Shown: positions 3,572-12,732 of the stretch, piece after piece
How positions within the stretch are numbered: position 1 is the first letter of the stretch
Layout: every line of letters begins with the position of its first letter
Assembly (NCBI GenBank): GCA_021324435.1
Contig: JAJPIZ010000004.1
Location: forward strand, 1 to 62,928
DNA length: 62,928 nt
Direction of reading: 5' to 3'
Origin: Anaerolineae bacterium
Lineage (GTDB): Bacteria > Chloroflexota > Anaerolineae > Anaerolineales > Villigracilaceae
Translations under genes and position numbers: made by a program
The notes under the pieces: generated by a model
Seen by the model: only the letters and a program-made list of their open reading frames with translations
The model's database searches: none
What the model was told of the DNA's origin: nothing

Positions 3572-4771
3572 ATGCAAAGGCAACTTACTGGTAATCCTTT
3601 CGTTTTCTCCATCGCCGAATTTTCAGGCTCGCTCGCGGATCTCGGCGTCATGCTCCCGCTCATCCTGGCGCTGATCGCCCTCAACGGCATGGACGCCACC
3701 GCTGTCTTCGTCGGAGTGGGCATCGCTTATATCCTCGTCGCGCTGGTGTACCGTCTGCCCATTCCCGTCCAGCCGCTCAAATCCGTTTCGGCGCTGGCGC
3801 TCGCAATGGGGCTTGCTCCCGTGGTCATCGTCACGGGCGCCATCTGGAACGCGGTCGCCTTTCTCGGCATGGGCCTGGCGGGTCTTGACCGCTGGGTACA
3901 CAAAATCTTTTCCAAGCCGGTGGTGCGCGGCATTCAACTCGGCCTGGCATGGCTGTTATTCAAATCCGCCTGGACATTGATTCAAAAGACCCCCCAAGGC
4001 TGGCAGGGCGGATTCGACTTTTCAGGACAGACCATCAACTGGCTGTGGATTTTGGTCGGCGGCGCGTCCATCTTCCTCTTGCTTTTTCTCTTTTGGAAAC
4101 GCGACCTCGCCGCGCTGGGGGTCGTCATCTTTGGGATCGGCGCATCAGGACTCCGCCTCGGCCTGCCCGCCGTTTCTCTGCATTTGACTCTCCCCAAACT
4201 TCTCCCGCTCATCCCCACCTGGAGTCAACTCTGGCAGGGACTGATCCTGCTCGCCCTGCCGCAAATTCCGCTCAGCCTCGGCAACTCCATCTACGCCACT
4301 GCCGACGCGGCACGCCAATACTTCGGCGAAAAAGCCGCGCATGTCACCGAGCGCAAACTCATGCTCACGATGGGAACCGCCGACGCTGTGACCGCCGTGC
4401 TTGGCGGCGTTCCATTATGTCACGGTTGCGGCGGGCTGACCTCGCATTACCGCCTCGGTGCGCGTTCGGGCGGCGCGCCGCTCATGCTGGGCACCATCTT
4501 CCTTTTACTGGGACTGTTCGGCGGTTCGGCCAGTATGCAAATCTTCGGGCTGATTCCCTTCCCCGTGCTGGGCGTCCTGCTGGCGTATGTCGGTTTTCAA
4601 CACATGCTCCTGGCGAGTGACCTGCGCGGCGCGCAAGCCTGGCTCACCGCCCTGCTTGTGCTCGCCCTGACCCTCTGGACGAACAACCTCGCCATTGGCT
4701 TCGTCAGCGCGGCGGTCTTTTATCACGCGTGGAACCGGCTGGCGGGGAGCAAACTTGCCGATGTTCATTGA
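3572..4771 (+). CDS. MOT1-type molybdate/sulfate permease
   Basis: This is a 399-residue polytopic membrane protein with about ten hydrophobic segments. The two MOT1 signatures are visible: [16 protein letters not shown] (about residue 65) and [18 protein letters not shown] (about residue 280), which characterise this SulP-related family of high-affinity molybdate importers. The length is normal and the frame intact, unlike its neighbours. It follows a broken FmdE gene and its end overlaps the start of a MoaA stub, so the island was once a molybdenum acquisition and cofactor unit. Sulfate as substrate cannot be excluded. Confidence 0.85.
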
Positions 4772-6145: not shown

Positions 6146-7387
6146 GTGATCAAACTCAGTTATAGCACGTTCGGCCTGACCAACCTGGGCTTTTTAGATT
6201 CCATTGAGGCTGTGGATAAAGCAGGCTATCCGGGCATCGAACTTTCATTTCATCGCGACCAGTTCAATCCGTTCAATATCACCGATGACGACCTTGCGGC
6301 GGTCAAGAAGCGGCTGGAAGGGTTGCGAGTAAAAGCCGCCTGCGTTTCAACCGCCTCGCATTTTTTCACCCCGTCCAGGCCGCACGAACCGTCGCTGATG
6401 AGCCCAGATTTGGCGGGCAGAAAGCGCCGCATCAACCTCGTCCGGCGCGGGATTGATGTTGCTCGAAAGCTGGGCGTGTCCCTCGTCACGTTTGGAAGCG
6501 GATTCATCCGCGATGAGCATGTCGCTAATCCATCGGTCAATCCGCGTGAACTGCTGGTGGATAGCATCCATCAATGTTTGAAATCCCTGCGGGATGACGA
6601 TGACATCACTCTGTTGATCGAGCCCGAGCCGGGCATGTACATCGAAACATTGGAGCAGGGCATTAGCCTCGTCAAGGAAGTCGGATCGCCGCGTTTCCAG
6701 CTGCACCTCGATCTGTGTCATAACTATTGTTCGGAAGATCATTATCTTGAGGCCTTGGCAAAAGCCGCGCCGCACGCCAAATTCCTGCACGTCTCCGACG
6801 CGCGCGAGGGCTACAACCTGAAACTCATCAAAATGGCAGATAATTTAAAACTTGATTTAAGTTTTGCCCACTACCTGATTTATTTCCCCGAATACGCAGA
6901 TTACCTTTTGGTGGATCGTGACCATCCGATCTATTTCTACGACGAGGCGCCGGGCGTGCAACAAAAGAAGCGCATCGAATCTATTTTGGGATCGGTGAAC
7001 ATTTCGCGACCGCCCGCCTTCGTTGACTATAACAGTTTGTTCGCAGGCGCCACGCCCTTTGACGACGAAATTTTTACGTATTCGATTTCCGTTCCGGGTC
7101 TGAGTTACGATGTGTTGGAAAGGGCAAGGCCCATTCTTATTTATTTGCGGACGACAAAAGACGCAAGCGGCAAATTGCTGATGGACAAGATGGTAGCGAA
7201 CACACTGACCGGTATCGTCCATTTCCATGAAATTCCCGGCGAAGGGACAATGAACTTTGCCGCCAGTTTCAAAGCATTGACCGACAGCGGCTATTCCGGG
7301 TATGCTTCTGTTGAGTTGTATCATCACGTCGCCTCATGGGAGAAGGCGTTGAAGGATAGTTACAAACATTTGTCGCAATTTGTGTAG
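6146..7387 (+). CDS. TIM-barrel sugar-phosphate isomerase/epimerase-like protein
   Basis: This 413-residue protein of the xylose-isomerase-like AP-endonuclease-2 fold begins at a GTG. Fold landmarks are LSYSTFGLTNLGF at the N-terminus, LLIEPEPGMYIET (about 155), FQLHLDLCHNYCS (about 185), FLHVSDAREG (about 215) and YASVELYHHV near the end, giving the usual Glu, Asp, His and Glu metal ligands. Between about residues 228 and 350 there is an extra segment not usual for the family. It heads a same-strand cluster with LuxS-like, cyclase, methyltransferase and prenyltransferase genes and occupies the place of EboE in Ebo clusters, though its sequence does not begin like EboE. The substrate is unknown. 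Confidence 0.75.
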   Translation: MIKLSYSTFGLTNLGFLDSIEAVDKAGYPGIELSFHRDQFNPFNITDDDLAAVKKRLEGLRVKAACVSTASHFFTPSRPHEPSLMSPDLAGRKRRINLVRRGIDVARKLGVSLVTFGSGFIRDEHVANPSVNPRELLVDSIHQCLKSLRDDDDITLLIEPEPGMYIETLEQGISLVKEVGSPRFQLHLDLCHNYCSEDHYLEALAKAAPHAKFLHVSDAREGYNLKLIKMADNLKLDLSFAHYLIYFPEYADYLLVDRDHPIYFYDEAPGVQQKKRIESILGSVNISRPPAFVDYNSLFAGATPFDDEIFTYSISVPGLSYDVLERARPILIYLRTTKDASGKLLMDKMVANTLTGIVHFHEIPGEGTMNFAASFKALTDSGYSGYASVELYHHVASWEKALKDSYKHLSQFV

Positions 7388-7431
7388 ATATGCCGGAAGA
7401 GCGATTAAGCTTCCAGGATGGTCCAAAGACC

Positions 7432-7501
7432 TAACCATGGAGCACACAGAGAGCATGGAAGACTATTAAAAGGTTTTCTCTGTGGTCTCTGTGGTGAAAG
7501 A
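7432..7501. repeat. Intergenic imperfect inverted repeat
   Basis: CCATGGAGCACACAGAGAGC on the left is followed by TTTTCTCTGTGGTCTCTGTG on the right, an imperfect palindrome of the low-complexity kind found between many genes here. It fills the gap between the isomerase and LuxS-like genes. No promoter stands out. Confidence 0.4.
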
Positions 7502-7521
7502 AACTAATACAGGAGAGAGTT

Positions 7522-8001
7522 ATGATAGATATTGCTCAACTCGGTTGGGAGGCCGGCACAGTTGGGGAGTTGGATCATCGCGCGTTGAAAGCGCCGCACG
7601 TCAAACTCCGCTCGTTCACCCAGGGACCGACAGGCGATGTGGTCTACGCGGTGGATCTGCGAATCAATCGGCCTAATTCCGTCTTTTTGTCTTCCACGGA
7701 AATGCACTCCTTCGAGCATTTCCTTTTGTGGGGTTTTCAAAAATACATGCCACAGAATTTCATTTCCATCGGCTTGATGGGCTGTCAGACCGGTTTTTAC
7801 CTCGTTCTCTTCAATGAAGGACGCGCCCAGACCATTTTTGATGTATATGAAAAAATCCTGAACGACATTCTGACCGCCGGCGAAGTGCCGTATGCCAATA
7901 TCGCGCAATGCGGCAATTACAAGAATCACAGCCTTGAAATGGCGCAGGCTCTTGCCAAAAGAGTCCTGGAAGCGAAGTCCAATTGGCGGCAGATCACTTA
8001 G
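7522..8001 (+). CDS. luxS: LuxS-family S-ribosylhomocysteine lyase-like protein
   Basis: The 159-residue protein has the whole LuxS active site. His62, Glu65 and His66 form the HXXEH metal motif (MHSFEHF), Cys88 sits in MGCQTGFY, the metal-ligand Cys130 in QCGNYKNHSLE, and Arg47 in DLR. LuxS cleaves S-ribosylhomocysteine to homocysteine and DPD, the AI-2 precursor. Overall sequence is divergent (LLWGFQKYMPQN replaces the usual YAGFMRNHLN). GGAGAGAG lies just upstream of the ATG. The cyclase gene starts 7 bases after its stop, so the two are co-transcribed. It may clear methyltransferase by-product for the neighbouring UbiG-like enzyme, or act on a related substrate. Confidence 0.8.
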   Translation: MIDIAQLGWEAGTVGELDHRALKAPHVKLRSFTQGPTGDVVYAVDLRINRPNSVFLSSTEMHSFEHFLLWGFQKYMPQNFISIGLMGCQTGFYLVLFNEGRAQTIFDVYEKILNDILTAGEVPYANIAQCGNYKNHSLEMAQALAKRVLEAKSNWRQIT

Positions 8002-8008
8002 GGATAAA

Positions 8009-9136
8009 ATGAGCACACGACGAGTTACTTTTCAGCACACAATTGAATACGAGGTGGTTAACACCTCCAATCTATTCCAACCGCATAACTGGGCATTGCT
8101 CTCCGCGGGAAGGATCGAGGACTCACGCCGCTTTGTTGTGGTGGATGCCAACGTGGAGAAAATTTATTCCTCCGCGATACGGGATTATTTTGCATACCAC
8201 CATGTGGAGGCGAGGATCGTCGCGTTTCCCGGCGGCGAAGAGAATAAAACCATGGACCATTACCTGTCCATTTTGCGGGAGTTGGATTCGTTTCCGATTC
8301 ACCGTCGCGATGAACCGATCATCGCCATCGGCGGCGGCGTGCTAACCGATGTGGTTGGTTTTGTGGCGGGCAGTTATCGCCGAGGCCTGCCGTACATCAA
8401 GGTCCCGACGACATTGATGGGATACGTAGACGCTTCGATTGGTATCAAGACCGGCGTCAATTTCAACAGAAGCAAGAATCGGCTGGGCGCCTTTCATTCT
8501 CCGCAAAAAGTTTTGCTGGATAAATCCTTCCTGAAGACTCTATCAAGACGTCACCTCCTGAACGGCGTTTGTGAAATCATCAAGCTGGCCGTCATTAAAG
8601 ATGCGGGACTGTTCGATCTGCTTGAAACGCATGGAGCCCAATGCGTTGATTCGCATTTTCAGGATGAGGCAGGTGGCATCATCCTTGACCGCGCCATCGG
8701 CGGAATGCTGGAGGAACTAGAGCCGAATCTGTTTGAAGAAGATTTGGCGCGCAAAGTAGATTTTGGGCACACATTCAGTTACGGTCTGGAAACACGATAC
8801 GAAACGCATCTTTATCATGGCGAGGCAGTTCTGCTCGATATTCTCGTCTCGTCGCTGATCGCGCGCGGGCGAAATCTTTTATCGGATGAAGAGACGGAAC
8901 GCATCTTCCGCCTGACCGACGCGCTGGGGATCGAACTTAACGTCTCGGTCCTTGACCCGAGCCTGCTCTGGGCCTCGCTCACAGAGCGTACCTACCACCG
9001 CAACGGACTGCAACGCGTCCCCATGCCGCGCGGCATAGGCGGATGTGTCTTTTTAAACGATATAAAAGCCAACGAGATCGAACTCGCTGTAAAAAATTTA
9101 GAAGATTGGATTGCCATAAAATATGACCACGTTTGA
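8009..9136 (+). CDS. Sugar-phosphate cyclase of the dehydroquinate synthase superfamily (C7-cyclitol/EboD-like)
   Basis: This 375-residue NAD- and metal-dependent cyclase has PGGEENKT at 74-81, the NAD loop GGGVLTD at 108-114, and metal ligands Glu189 (CEIIK), His254 (DFGHTF) and His270 (YHGEAV). The loop after VPTTL reads VDASIGIKTGVNFNRSKNRLG, where true AroB usually has SSVGGKTGIN. This pattern matches the sedoheptulose-7-phosphate cyclases (2-epi-5-epi-valiolone or desmethyl-4-deoxygadusol type) and EboD-like proteins better than AroB. The ATG at 8009 was chosen over the longer upstream frame because that frame overlaps luxS. Its end overlaps the methyltransferase gene by 14 bases. Confidence 0.75.
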   Translation: MSTRRVTFQHTIEYEVVNTSNLFQPHNWALLSAGRIEDSRRFVVVDANVEKIYSSAIRDYFAYHHVEARIVAFPGGEENKTMDHYLSILRELDSFPIHRRDEPIIAIGGGVLTDVVGFVAGSYRRGLPYIKVPTTLMGYVDASIGIKTGVNFNRSKNRLGAFHSPQKVLLDKSFLKTLSRRHLLNGVCEIIKLAVIKDAGLFDLLETHGAQCVDSHFQDEAGGIILDRAIGGMLEELEPNLFEEDLARKVDFGHTFSYGLETRYETHLYHGEAVLLDILVSSLIARGRNLLSDEETERIFRLTDALGIELNVSVLDPSLLWASLTERTYHRNGLQRVPMPRGIGGCVFLNDIKANEIELAVKNLEDWIAIKYDHV

Positions 9137-9830
9137 AAATGCCGACAACAAAGAAATCGAAAAATTCGACAAGGTCTCTCAAATTTGGTGGGACCTCAAC
9201 GGTGAAATGGGCACGCTTCACGTCATCAACCCATTGCGGACCCATTTCATCATGGAGAAACTCACTGCCCCTAATCCCCGCATCCTCGACGTGGGCTGCG
9301 GAGGCGGAATCCTCTCCGAGGCGCTGGCCAAAGCCGGCGCGCAGGTGACAGGCCTGGACTTGTCCGATGCGTCTCTTCAAGTCGCCCGCCAGCACGCACA
9401 AAGTCAGGGTCTCAAAATTGATTATCGTTACGAGAGTGTGCAGGATCTCGCTGATAAAGAGACAGGCGCCTTCGACGCGATCACCTGCATGGAGATGCTG
9501 GAGCATGTACCAGAGCCGGCGAAGGTGGTAGCGGCTTGTGCCAAAGCATTGAAGCCGGGCGGACATGCCTTCTTTTCTACCATCAATCGCACGCCCAAGG
9601 CTTTCCTGTTCGCCATCATCGGCGGCGAGTACATTTTGCGCCTCCTGCCGCGCGGTACGCACACGTACTCAAAACTAATTCGTCCAATCGAACTGAAGAA
9701 ATGGAACCAAGACGCCAGATTGGACTTTGTTCGTATCGCCAGCCTGATATACAATCCGTTCACGCGCAAGTTTAAAGTCGCGCACAATGTGGAAGACGTA
9801 AACTACATGGCGCACTTCACCAAGAAATAA
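9123..9830 (+). CDS. UbiG-like O-methyltransferase
   Basis: This 235-residue class I SAM methyltransferase has DVGCGGGILSE at about 56-66, VTGLDLSDASL, ITCMEMLEHVPEP, LKPGGHAFFSTINR and the UbiG-specific tail GTHTYSKLIRPIEL...DVNYM. UbiG methylates hydroxyls of ubiquinone precursors, yet nothing else here points to ubiquinone, and a Wood-Ljungdahl Chloroflexota would be expected to use menaquinone. Because it lies between a cyclase gene and a prenyltransferase gene, it more likely methylates the cluster's own product. The start overlaps the cyclase gene. Confidence 0.8.
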   Translation: MTTFENADNKEIEKFDKVSQIWWDLNGEMGTLHVINPLRTHFIMEKLTAPNPRILDVGCGGGILSEALAKAGAQVTGLDLSDASLQVARQHAQSQGLKIDYRYESVQDLADKETGAFDAITCMEMLEHVPEPAKVVAACAKALKPGGHAFFSTINRTPKAFLFAIIGGEYILRLLPRGTHTYSKLIRPIELKKWNQDARLDFVRIASLIYNPFTRKFKVAHNVEDVNYMAHFTKK

Positions 9831-9864
9831 TTGTTATCTCACTGATGGTCATCCGGAGTTTTAT

Positions 9865-10761
9865 ATGAAACGTTTCTTTGCGCTTTCGAGAACTACACAC
9901 GGAGTTTTGGATCTCGCCATGCCCGGCTTTGTTGCTTTGTTGTGGCTGGGCGCTTTTCCGCAATGGCAGACCATTCTTCTTTCCATATTTACTGCCTTTG
10001 CCGCTTATACGGCCATCTATGCCCTCAACGACCTTGTCGGCATCGTTGTGGATAAAGAAAAATTCGTGGGCGGAATCAACGCCGGGTATTCGGTCGAGGC
10101 GTCCAACATGCGCTACCCACTGGCGCAAAATATCCTCCCTTATCGTAGCGGCTGGCTATGGTTCGTGATTTGGTTCGTGCTGGCGCTCATCGGCTCTTAC
10201 ATTCTTAACCCCGTCATTGTTTTCATACTGGCGTCAGCTACGGCGCTCGAAGTAATCTATTGCCTCTTGCTCAAGGTTACCTATCTCCGCACTTTGGTCA
10301 GCGGGTTGGTCAAATCGAGCGGACCCATTGCGGCGATCTTCGTCGTGGACGCCAGCCCCGATCTCGTGAAAGTCCTGCTTGTCCTCGCCTGGATTTTTGT
10401 GTGGGAGATCGGCGGGCAAAACATACCTGCGGATTGGAACGATACCGTGGAGGACAAACGCGTCAACGCCAAGACGATTCCACTGCAACTCGGCACACAG
10501 ACAGCCGGCGTCATCGTTCTTCTCTCGCTCGCGTTGACAGTGAGCATCAGCCTGCTTCTGCCGCGAATTTCGCCTCTCAATCTGGGCTGGCTTTACCTTA
10601 TCGCAAGCGCCGCGGTTGGCATCTTCTTATTGTTGAAACCGGGCTATGAACTTTTTAGAAGGCAAGAGGAGGGGCGCATGGCGGCGAGGCTGTTTGATAG
10701 CGCCAGTTATTATCCGTTGGCACAGTTGGTGATCATTTCTATTTTCGTGCTGGTCAAGTAA
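9865..10761 (+). CDS. UbiA-family prenyltransferase
   Basis: This is a 298-residue membrane protein with about eight or nine hydrophobic helices. The first Asp motif is NDLVGIVVDKEK (Asn55, Asp56, Asp63), with Gly replacing one of the usual Asp residues; the second is DWNDTVEDKRVNAKT. UbiA enzymes join a polyprenyl diphosphate to an aromatic or cyclic acceptor in the membrane. It ends the 6146-10761 cluster, 34 bases after the methyltransferase gene, and corresponds in position to EboC. The acceptor is unknown. Confidence 0.8.
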   Translation: MKRFFALSRTTHGVLDLAMPGFVALLWLGAFPQWQTILLSIFTAFAAYTAIYALNDLVGIVVDKEKFVGGINAGYSVEASNMRYPLAQNILPYRSGWLWFVIWFVLALIGSYILNPVIVFILASATALEVIYCLLLKVTYLRTLVSGLVKSSGPIAAIFVVDASPDLVKVLLVLAWIFVWEIGGQNIPADWNDTVEDKRVNAKTIPLQLGTQTAGVIVLLSLALTVSISLLLPRISPLNLGWLYLIASAAVGIFLLLKPGYELFRRQEEGRMAARLFDSASYYPLAQLVIISIFVLVK

Positions 10762-10847
10762 AAGCCCCTATATCAGTTGCTGGAGGGGGGTGGGCCAACC
10801 TAAATGGGGCTATGGTATACTTACGATTAAGTTTTTCCTTAACCGCT

Positions 10848-11822
10848 ATGCACAAAGTCGAATCGCTTCAGGCTTTTGACCAAATAAAACTGCTCGCTGA
10901 CTCGCGCCGCATGGCGATTCTGCGAATCCTAATGGCCTCGCCTGCCACGCTTACGCATCTGGCGCGGACTCTGGGACGGTCTCCGGCATGGATTCGGCAC
11001 CACATCAAAGCGCTTGAGTCCGCCAAACTCATCGAGATGGCTGAAGTCCGCACCACAGGGACGGTAACGGAAAAATATTACCGTGCCAAGTCCGGCGCGT
11101 TCCTGCTCCAACAGATGATTTTGCCGAAAACCAAAAAGCCTGCGCTGATCTTTTCCGGCAGCCATGATCTGGCGCTGGAATTTGCCGCAGAACATCTCTC
11201 GAAACATTTCCATTTGCTGAGTCTGCCCGTCGGTTCATTGGACGGACTTGTAAATCTTCGTCAAGGGTTATGTCAAATGTCCGGCTCGCATTTGCTGGAT
11301 GAAAATGGTGAATACAACACGTCTTATGTTCGTCATCTTTTCCCCGATCGCGACATGGAAATCATCACTCTGGCAAATCGCACGCAGGGACTTATGCTTG
11401 CGGAGAGTAACCCCAAGCGTGTTAAGAAGATCGCCGACCTGACAAATCGAAATGTGCTCTTTGTGAATCGCAACGCAGGCTCAGGCACGCGCTTGTGGTT
11501 TGATTCCGAATTGCATAAGTTGAAAATCCCGGCTGAAAAGATCAAAGGCTATGACCGCGTCGTGGCGACTCATACCGAGGCCGCGTCTTTGATCAAGAAC
11601 AACAAAGCAGACGCGGCTATCGGTTTGCAAGCCGCCGCCCATCAACATGGACTCGACTTCATCCCGCTCTTTGAAGAACGCTATGATTTGGTTCTGCCGC
11701 GTGAGCAGGAAAAATCCATTTCGCCATTTTTGGATTACATCCAAACCGCGGACTTCCGCCACGCGCTCGGCGCTTTGACTGGTTACAACACCGCACACAG
11801 CGGTGAACAAATTCCACTCTAA
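10848..11822 (+). CDS. wHTH regulator fused to a molybdate/tungstate-binding-like domain
   Basis: The 324-residue protein has an ArsR-like winged helix at residues 1-80 (LADSRRMAILRILM, LARTLGRSPAWIRHHIKALE) and a periplasmic-binding-protein-like domain from about 105 to the end (VNRNAGSGTRLWFD, VVATHTEAASLIKNNKADAA). The second domain is the type found in one-component oxyanion sensors. ATG 10848 is preferred to 10812 because the latter lies over a TATACT hexamer (10816-10821) that may be a -10 box. Its last 20 bases overlap the tupA gene, so it probably controls tungstate uptake. Confidence 0.75.
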   Translation: MHKVESLQAFDQIKLLADSRRMAILRILMASPATLTHLARTLGRSPAWIRHHIKALESAKLIEMAEVRTTGTVTEKYYRAKSGAFLLQQMILPKTKKPALIFSGSHDLALEFAAEHLSKHFHLLSLPVGSLDGLVNLRQGLCQMSGSHLLDENGEYNTSYVRHLFPDRDMEIITLANRTQGLMLAESNPKRVKKIADLTNRNVLFVNRNAGSGTRLWFDSELHKLKIPAEKIKGYDRVVATHTEAASLIKNNKADAAIGLQAAAHQHGLDFIPLFEERYDLVLPREQEKSISPFLDYIQTADFRHALGALTGYNTAHSGEQIPL

Positions 11823-12732
11823 AGGGAAAGAAATAATAAAGAAGATACTGCTCGCATTGTTTTTTGTTTTCTGCTTGACTGTAACAGCGTGCGCTCCTTC
11901 CGCCCCGACGGCGGCTCCTGCAACCGAAGCGCCCACTCCAGGCCCGGCGCCCGTCAATCCCAATCTGATTCTGGCGACAACCACTTCAACGCAAGACTCG
12001 GGTCTGCTCGATGTGTTGATTCCGCTTTTTGAACAGGAGACAGGCTACCGGGTCCAGACAGTAGCGGTGGGGACCGGGCAGGCGCTTCAAATGGGGCAGG
12101 ATGGCAATGCAGACGTTCTCTTGGTCCACGCGCCTTCATCTGAAAAGACTTACATGGATGGCGGCTTTGGCAAGGATCGCGCCCTTGTCATGCACAATGA
12201 TTTCATCATCGTTGGGCCTGCGGACGACCCTGCTGGAATTAAAGGGTTGAGTCCAATAGATGCATTCAAGGCAATCTATGCGTCGGGCGCGGCGTTTGTC
12301 TCACGCGGCGATGACTCGGGCACCAACAAAAAGGAACTTGATTTATGGAAGAAGACCGCGCTTGATCCAAAAACGGAGAAGCCTGCGTGGTACATTGAAA
12401 CGGGGCAGGGTATGGGCGCGACGTTGATTATGGCCTCCGAGAAAAACGCATACACGCTGACGGATCGCGCCACATATCTGGCCAACAAGGTCAACCTGCA
12501 ATTGGAGATTTTGGTTGAGAAAGACAATTCGCTTTTGAATGTGTATCACGTGATCACGGTCAATCCCGATAAATGGCCGAAGGTGAATTATGAAGGCGCG
12601 CTGGCTTTCTATAATTTCCTCATCGCACCCGACGCTCAAAAGGTGATCGGCGAGTTTGGCATGGACAAGTATGGCCAGCAATTGTTCGTCCCGGATGCGG
12701 ACAAGACCGATGCCGATCTTGGGTTGAAATAA
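11803..12732 (+). CDS. tupA: Tungstate-binding lipoprotein of an ABC importer
   Basis: This 309-residue protein starts at a GTG inside the regulator gene. It has a basic and hydrophobic signal, lipobox Cys30 (TVTAC), a Pro/Ala/Thr linker, and the TupA ligand motif ATTTSTQDSGLLD at 58-70. Later landmarks are FVSRGDDSGTNKKE and GQGMGATLIMASE. TupA binds tungstate with very high affinity and feeds the TupBC permease and ATPase. No tupB or tupC follows; a terminator lies 30 bases downstream, so the transport partners must be elsewhere or absent. Tungsten enzymes fit a Wood-Ljungdahl organism. Confidence 0.85.
   Translation: MNKFHSKGKEIIKKILLALFFVFCLTVTACAPSAPTAAPATEAPTPGPAPVNPNLILATTTSTQDSGLLDVLIPLFEQETGYRVQTVAVGTGQALQMGQDGNADVLLVHAPSSEKTYMDGGFGKDRALVMHNDFIIVGPADDPAGIKGLSPIDAFKAIYASGAAFVSRGDDSGTNKKELDLWKKTALDPKTEKPAWYIETGQGMGATLIMASEKNAYTLTDRATYLANKVNLQLEILVEKDNSLLNVYHVITVNPDKWPKVNYEGALAFYNFLIAPDAQKVIGEFGMDKYGQQLFVPDADKTDADLGLK

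Follow-up and report, generated by a model that had tools for sequence, protein, structure and literature searches.

A conserved five-gene module with a sugar phosphate cyclase and a LuxS-like protein in Anaerolineales and other bacteria may encode an undescribed cyclitol pathway

Parts of the enzymology considered here are known from separate systems. The compound BE-40644 is made from the product of a 2-epi-5-epi-valiolone synthase (EEVS), and its prenylation is attributed, tentatively, to a member of the UbiA family (PMC5133447), while LuxS first moves the carbonyl group of its known substrate and then cleaves a stable thioether (PMC3907816). Here, we analysed a stretch of 62,928 nucleotides from an Anaerolineae bacterium (JAJPIZ010000004.1, hereafter the window), which is contig C10 in its source assembly (3.1 Mb, 97% complete). 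It carries a cluster of five genes, all on the plus strand (6146-10761), for a TIM barrel, a LuxS-family protein, a sugar phosphate cyclase, a UbiG-type methyltransferase and a UbiA-family membrane protein. We consider it fairly probable that this cluster encodes an as yet undescribed pathway: a C7 cyclitol would lose water and receive a methyl and a prenyl group, and LuxS would have been recruited to isomerise or dehydrate the cyclitol; we infer both the substrate and the product of this pathway. No description of the set as a unit was found in the open-licence literature searched, in line with the sequence-only reading of this DNA, which knew of no described pathway with these genes. The only printed trace found there is Table A1 of PMC8756737, whose entries for the neighbourhood of nirS in SURF MAG 42 include the same five genes in unchanged order; they are given as annotations without comment, and the terms "LuxS" and "EEVS" are each found a single time in the main text of that paper, both in this table.

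Linkage, distribution and transfer of the five genes

The position, order and family of the five genes had been read accurately from the sequence, as matches to family models confirm. A xylose-isomerase-like TIM barrel of 413 amino acids (6146-7387; PF01261, 127 bits) is followed by a LuxS-family protein of 159 amino acids (7522-8001; PF02664, 116 bits against a cut-off of 27), a sugar phosphate cyclase of the sedoheptulose 7-phosphate (SH7P) cyclase type with 375 amino acids (8009-9136; PF01761/PF24621), a UbiG-type S-adenosylmethionine (SAM)-dependent O-methyltransferase of 235 amino acids (9123-9830; TIGR01983, 265 bits against a cut-off of 103) and a UbiA-family integral membrane protein of 298 amino acids (9865-10761; PF01040, 79 bits against a cut-off of 34). 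The cyclase gene overlaps ubiG by 14 bases, and gaps of 7, 34 and 134 bases separate luxS from the cyclase gene, ubiG from ubiA and the TIM barrel gene from luxS, respectively.

All five genes recur in fixed order, on one strand and within 7 kb, in 78 of 80 loci, where their products are 50-89% identical to the window proteins. These loci are the best 80 of 103 confirmed when 84,980 species genomes were searched using the cyclase as the only query, and they were retrieved via the peptide patterns PTTLMGY[VI] or DFGHTFSY; because the pattern DFGHTFSY favours Tyr, the conservation of Y258 in the cyclase is partly selected, while the linkage of the other four genes is unaffected. One of the two exceptions (L119) is a contig that stops inside ubiG. 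A close cyclase (at least 63% identity) was present in 14 of 61 genomes (60 relatives and the source), with the same five-gene order in all 14, and 400 genomes drawn from the phylum yielded 11 close cyclase matches, all in one family, and two distant ones (207 and 232 bits). The linkage read from the sequence is conserved in 78 of 80 loci and in all 13 relatives with a close cyclase, and the genes are not unlinked in relatives. This linkage is a strict module and not chance, and an operon so strictly kept across phyla almost certainly makes something useful.

The hosts of the 80 loci comprise Anaerolineales and Chloroflexi metagenome-assembled genomes (MAGs), many Proteobacteria (including several Rhodanobacter, Lysobacter, Thermomonas, Luteimonas, Dokdonella and the gamma proteobacterium HdN1, L136), one member of Eremiobacterota and three Mycobacterium species, i.e. 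M. szulgai, M. angelicum and M. simulans (L078, L082, L088). Pairwise distances among the five proteins are correlated (0.80-0.87, 73 loci) and the mycobacterial cyclases nest among those of Chloroflexota (fork 100/97). It thus seems that the five genes travel together, and the nested position of the mycobacterial copies points to their acquisition by horizontal transfer. The best explanation for the five genes is one horizontally mobile biosynthetic operon. Among plasmid records, none reached 60% identity to either the cyclase or the LuxS-like protein.

The surroundings of the cluster vary. In an all-against-all BLAST survey of flanking open reading frames of at least 90 amino acids in the 80 loci and the window, no flanking gene family occurred in more than 14 of the 81 loci; 18 families occurred in 5 to 14, the four largest being a sensor kinase, an ABC ATPase, a GGDEF/EAL protein and alanyl-tRNA synthetase. 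The neighbours in the window, i.e. a molybdate transporter (MFS_MOT1, 3572-4771), a helix-turn-helix (HTH) and periplasmic-binding-protein (PBP)-like regulator (10812-11822) and a TupA-like tungstate-binding protein (11803-12732, below its cut-off), are not among the named recurrent families. Within the gap between the TIM barrel gene and luxS, an imperfect palindrome-like stretch (7430-7500) contains the words CACAGAG and CTCTGTGG and resembles a dispersed repeat. An anti-phage role was considered and rejected, as the sole match was a generic methyltransferase for UbiG.

Type of the cyclase and comparison with AroB and Ebo proteins

The cyclase profile scored 392 bits against ValA/EEVS (4p53) in the PDB, 322 bits against the desmethyl-4-deoxygadusol synthase (DDGS) of Anabaena (5tpr) and 177 bits against the best AroB. 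In a tree of 47 rows with 27 of the 81 family members, the cyclase family forms its own clade (100/100) inside the SH7P-cyclase group, and a fork (99/95) unites it with ValA, the S. clavuligerus and A. vitis sequences, two DDGS and L056. AroB and EboD fall outside this fork; how these two branch relative to each other is weakly supported (75/37), and the tree contains some long branches. Two distant cyclases of Chloroflexota were also placed: L056 (232 bits) is a long branch beside the SH7P-cyclase group, and L057 (207 bits) groups with AroB.

The residues agree with this placement. At the three fingerprint positions, which we take to be L267, D281 and H360 of ValA and which set EEVS apart from DDGS and AroB in our alignment, the family is EEVS-like (L237 in 80 of 81, D251 and H330 in all 81); the two DDGS have E, A and T, four EboD have I, D and H, and eight AroB have I or V at the first position, N at the second in all eight and K at the third in four. 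The existence of such fingerprint sites is described in an eLife paper (PMC4426668). Since Asp and His are common to EboD, two of the three residues do not separate the cyclase from EboD. A DDGS identity was rejected, given that Asp and His instead of Ala and Thr are found in all 81 members and that the two DDGS form a separate clade (100/100). Profile scores, tree and fingerprint residues thus bear out the earlier proposal of an SH7P-cyclase type rather than AroB, and in a tree of AroB, EEVS, DDGS and EboD, where that proposal was to be checked, the cyclase groups with the SH7P cyclases.

An AroB identity was likewise rejected. The cyclase lies outside the AroB clade, its score against TIGR01357 (aroB) is 225.5 bits and does not reach the cut-off of 305, whereas the AroKB of a same-genus relative scores 359 bits, and the Asn of dehydroquinate synthase (DHQS) is Asp in all 81 members. 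The source assembly contains no other detectable AroB, chorismate synthase or shikimate dehydrogenase, which might suggest that the cyclase was recruited as the organism's dehydroquinate synthase after loss of AroB. However, this can hardly be credited in view of the clade, the score and the Asp residue. Moreover, a second, AroB-like match (29-36% identity) is present in each of the 13 relatives that carry the cyclase, and a family model identified it as AroKB in one of them, G002. In a same-genus relative, DAHP (3-deoxy-D-arabino-heptulosonate 7-phosphate) synthase, prephenate dehydrogenase, aroA, aroE, aroC and aroKB stand in one operon, so that a single gap or a single deletion explains the three absences; in another same-genus genome, aroKB is directly followed by aroQ. 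A 19-kb query from a same-genus relative, meant to distinguish loss of the shikimate operon from an assembly gap, gave only 13 short scattered matches in the source genome, compatible with both. The sequence-only reading had tied its proposal to the cyclase not being an AroB in a genome with no other aroB: the assembly indeed has no other aroB, yet the cyclase falls outside the AroB clade.

The same reading had called the set Ebo-like, which does not hold beyond the common list of superfamilies. Both systems pair a sugar phosphate cyclase with a UbiA-family protein and a xylose-isomerase-like TIM barrel, EboD has two of the three fingerprint residues, and sedoheptulose 7-phosphate is the suspected substrate of the Ebo cyclase, too (PMC5133447). 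A divergent Ebo pathway, in which the cluster would do the job of eboC, eboD and eboE while LuxS and UbiG replace eboA, eboB and eboF, is nevertheless highly unlikely. EboD (four sequences) forms a separate clade (100/100) outside the SH7P-cyclase group, and the TIM barrel and UbiA profiles have no usable similarity to EboE and EboC, with no match below E = 1 among four sequences of each. NF035939, NF035940 and NF004852 each match one true Ebo protein (404, 343 and 571 bits), but the first two are not among the listed matches of the window proteins at 0.001, and the window cyclase reaches only 205 bits against the cut-off of 333 for NF004852. The BLAST flank survey gave no neighbour recurring in more than 14 of 81 loci as a candidate for EboA, EboB or EboF, for which no models were run on the flanks. 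With these positive controls, membership of the ebo cluster and orthology to it were rejected.

The LuxS-like protein and its partner enzymes

The predicted structure of the LuxS-like protein (pLDDT 93.5) has LuxS of H. pylori as its best fold match (rmsd 1.1). We compared the residues of 81 family members with six canonical LuxS in B. subtilis numbering; as for the other proteins (78 TIM barrel, 81 cyclase, 79 UbiG and 76 UbiA sequences), the alignments exclude sequences of less than 75% coverage and an unrelated methyltransferase match of L087. The equivalents of H54, E57, H58, C84, C126, R39 and H11, metal ligands included, are invariant in all 81. On the other hand, the equivalent of Asp78 (D in all six canonical LuxS) is S in 69, G in 7 and C in 5 members, that of Ser80 is always replaced by G or A, that of Pro81 is Leu, Ile or Val in 73, and that of Phe7 is G in all 81, a position at which only two canonical LuxS could be compared. 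The family also has a conserved N-terminal LGW. Asp78 is reported to be important for substrate binding, and the Phe to be conserved in the LuxS studied (PMC2656534). With catalytic residues kept and the pocket altered, LuxS chemistry looks to be kept and the substrate changed.

An ordinary LuxS that serves autoinducer-2 (AI-2) production or the methyl cycle by recycling S-adenosylhomocysteine (SAH) from the methyltransferase of the operon would explain both the kept catalytic residues and the presence of a SAM methyltransferase within the same operon. A nucleosidase able to make S-ribosylhomocysteine (MTA/SAH nucleosidase, MTA being methylthioadenosine) was above its cut-off in 4 of 16 cluster genomes, namely three mycobacteria and one member of Chloroflexota; these 16 were hand-picked and comprise 8 of the 14 Chloroflexota and 8 named genomes. 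However, no such nucleosidase was above the cut-off in the other 12, and all 16 have a SAH hydrolase and, as their sole LuxS-family protein, the one discussed here. This protein falls below all ten NCBIfam LuxS equivalog cut-offs listed (the best being 124.2 against 208 and 114.6 against 158), whereas two canonical controls pass one each (E. coli LuxS with 349 against 197 and A. oris LuxS with 189 against 158). Together with the replaced pocket residues, these scores and counts led us to reject an ordinary LuxS as the most likely identity, and we regard it as improbable. If its substrate has indeed changed, a luxS match alone would not suffice to call such organisms AI-2 producers.

The LuxS reaction includes a beta-elimination step. 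By analogy, the same chemistry would isomerise a hydroxy-ketone ring and remove water from it. This would tie LuxS, otherwise familiar from AI-2 production and the methyl cycle, to cyclitol chemistry, a new reaction for this fold.

The TIM barrel is predicted to be a metal-dependent sugar or cyclitol epimerase, isomerase or dehydratase. PF01261 was found in all 32 members scanned, and E159, E161, H187, D189, H215 and E390 are at least 97% conserved among the 78 sequences. Its AlphaFold model (pLDDT 92.7) matches the ketose 3-epimerase TM_0416 with a VIA-align Z of 29.8 (27.6-29.8 for ketose 3-epimerases and IolI), and the matches also include Art22, UlaE and YcjR. Among the 50 matches listed, 251-274 of the 413 residues were aligned, which leaves some 140-160 residues outside the epimerase barrel. 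The profile also matches AsbF, a dehydroshikimate dehydratase.

UbiG methylates prenylated phenols, and Chloroflexota and mycobacteria belong to menaquinone-type phyla. The sequence-only reading had found a UbiG unexpected in a likely menaquinone organism, and this observation stands, with the cluster copy being the only UbiG-family match at 1e-40 in all 8 Chloroflexota and all 3 mycobacteria. It is also the only one in HdN1, where it may serve ubiquinone synthesis too. In 4 of 5 gammaproteobacterial cluster genomes, a second UbiG copy lies elsewhere, and the 79 cluster copies share 42-57% identity with the UbiG-family copies that two gammaproteobacteria carry apart from the cluster.

The UbiA-like protein is, judging from its sequence family, a probable prenyltransferase. 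It had no PDB sequence match at 0.001, and its score against TIGR01475 (60 bits, cut-off 180.8) indicates a superfamily-level relation to the UbiA of ubiquinone synthesis. The second aspartate motif (D190, D193, D197) is at least 97% conserved in the 76 sequences, and so are N55, D56, G59 and D63 of the first motif, NDxxGxxxD. Unlike this protein, four EboC proteins retain the middle Asp of the first motif, which reads DxxDxxxD in UbiA of E. coli (PMC9235831).

The proposed pathway and its relation to known systems

In the pathway that we favour, the cyclase would act first, as suggested by its clade and active-site residues: ring closure of sedoheptulose 7-phosphate would give a C7 cyclitol ketone, namely 2-epi-5-epi-valiolone or one of its close isomers. 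The TIM barrel and the LuxS-like protein, both predicted metal-dependent enolising enzymes, would then epimerise the ring ketone or shift its carbonyl and expel water; such a proton shuffle and beta-elimination, as carried out by LuxS on S-ribosylhomocysteine, might lead to an enone or a polyhydroxy aromatic ring. Finally, going by their families, the UbiA-like membrane protein would add an isoprenoid and the UbiG-type enzyme would O-methylate a ring hydroxyl, so that a membrane lipid with a methylated and prenylated C7 ring would result.

Several observations weigh against this proposal. The main doubt about prenylation is the altered first aspartate motif of the UbiA-like protein: with NDxxGxxxD in place of DxxDxxxD, the prenyl step could be changed or lost. 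In the cyclase, the Pro that follows the metal-ligand His motif in EEVS and DDGS is replaced in all 81 members (by Y in 73, by H in 7 and by Q in 1), and Tyr192 of EEVS and DDGS (4p53 chain numbering) is Phe in all 81; EboD and AroB carry His and Phe at these two positions. Because of these two departures, the substrate or product may differ, and the enzyme is on present sequence grounds an SH7P-cyclase-type enzyme of its own clade and not an EEVS proper. Regarding the LuxS-like protein, the homocysteine pocket can be regarded as changed in part only, since Pro81 is kept in 8 of 81 members and the equivalent of Arg65 is ambiguous (K74 by MAFFT, with R in 39 and K in 38 of 81, and Q73 by HMMER alignments), and the glycine at Phe7 is judged against just those two canonical sequences. 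In one of the 80 loci (L087, 9498-12026), ubiA comes straight after the cyclase gene with no ubiG between. No quinone gene, dehydrogenase or transporter was seen recurring beside the cluster in the 81 loci. In favour of prenylation, the three Mycobacterium loci have a polyprenyl synthetase gene (PF00348) that adjoins ubiA from the opposite strand, and such a gene is also near the cluster in L135 and L136 (Pfam was run on three of these five), but this makes just 5 of 81 loci, three of them from related mycobacteria. A heme-copper oxidase match was found in all 14 cluster genomes of family f1 compared with 17 of the 23 others, and this link is not significant (Fisher two-sided p = 0.065).

It is conceivable, though clearly less likely than the pathway in its general form, that the five genes constitute a route, independent of chorismate, to a quinone with a respiratory or protective role, whose aromatic nucleus would come from sedoheptulose 7-phosphate with LuxS as the dehydrating, aromatising enzyme. 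The UbiA and UbiG homologues would then prenylate and methylate the ring after its aromatisation, and as the ring oxygens would derive from the sugar, no oxygen-dependent ring hydroxylase would be needed. If true, this would be a new isoprenoid quinone common to Chloroflexota, Proteobacteria and some mycobacteria, made by a route that begins at the pentose phosphate pathway and not at chorismate.

The altered UbiA motif might also hint at a small C7 cyclitol that is soluble in water and, like gadusol or the mycosporines, serves as an antioxidant or osmolyte; UbiG would methylate this cyclitol directly, while the UbiA-like protein acts as an exporter or is a degenerate transferase. An EEVS-type cyclase and a methyltransferase follow the logic of gadusol synthesis (PMC4426668), and a Nostoc locus has adjoining cyclase and O-methyltransferase genes. 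Both the soluble product and this role of the UbiA-like protein are, however, unlikely. The UbiA gene is present in all of the 80 loci whose contig extends to it, the methyltransferase is of the UbiG type, with the identities to UbiG-family copies given above, and UbiG acts on prenylated phenols. Moreover, some of the hosts stem from groundwater metagenomes, an environment in which a sunscreen would be of little use.

The cluster shares traits with four known systems. With LuxS (S-ribosylhomocysteine lyase), the cluster protein shares the fold and the catalytic residues, but it has replaced pocket residues, the N-terminal LGW and a place in a cyclitol operon, in hosts that have SAH hydrolase. 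The UbiG and UbiA steps of ubiquinone synthesis have in common with the cluster a UbiG above its equivalog cut-off and the UbiA superfamily, whereas the UbiA motif of the cluster is altered and its ring would probably come from a sugar phosphate cyclase, not from chorismate. As in the ebo cluster (eboA-F), a cyclase, a UbiA-family protein and a xylose-isomerase-like TIM barrel stand in one operon, but neither LuxS nor UbiG is annotated in the four ebo loci fetched, while the five-gene cluster has both. The EEVS and other SH7P-cyclase systems share membership of the SH7P-cyclase group and the EEVS-type fingerprint, and BE-40644 of Actinoplanes even the combination of EEVS and a UbiA-family prenyltransferase (PMC5133447). 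Compared to these systems, the cyclase of the five-gene cluster stands in its own clade with two active-site departures, and the cluster adds LuxS-like, TIM barrel and UbiG-type enzymes in a fixed operon across phyla.

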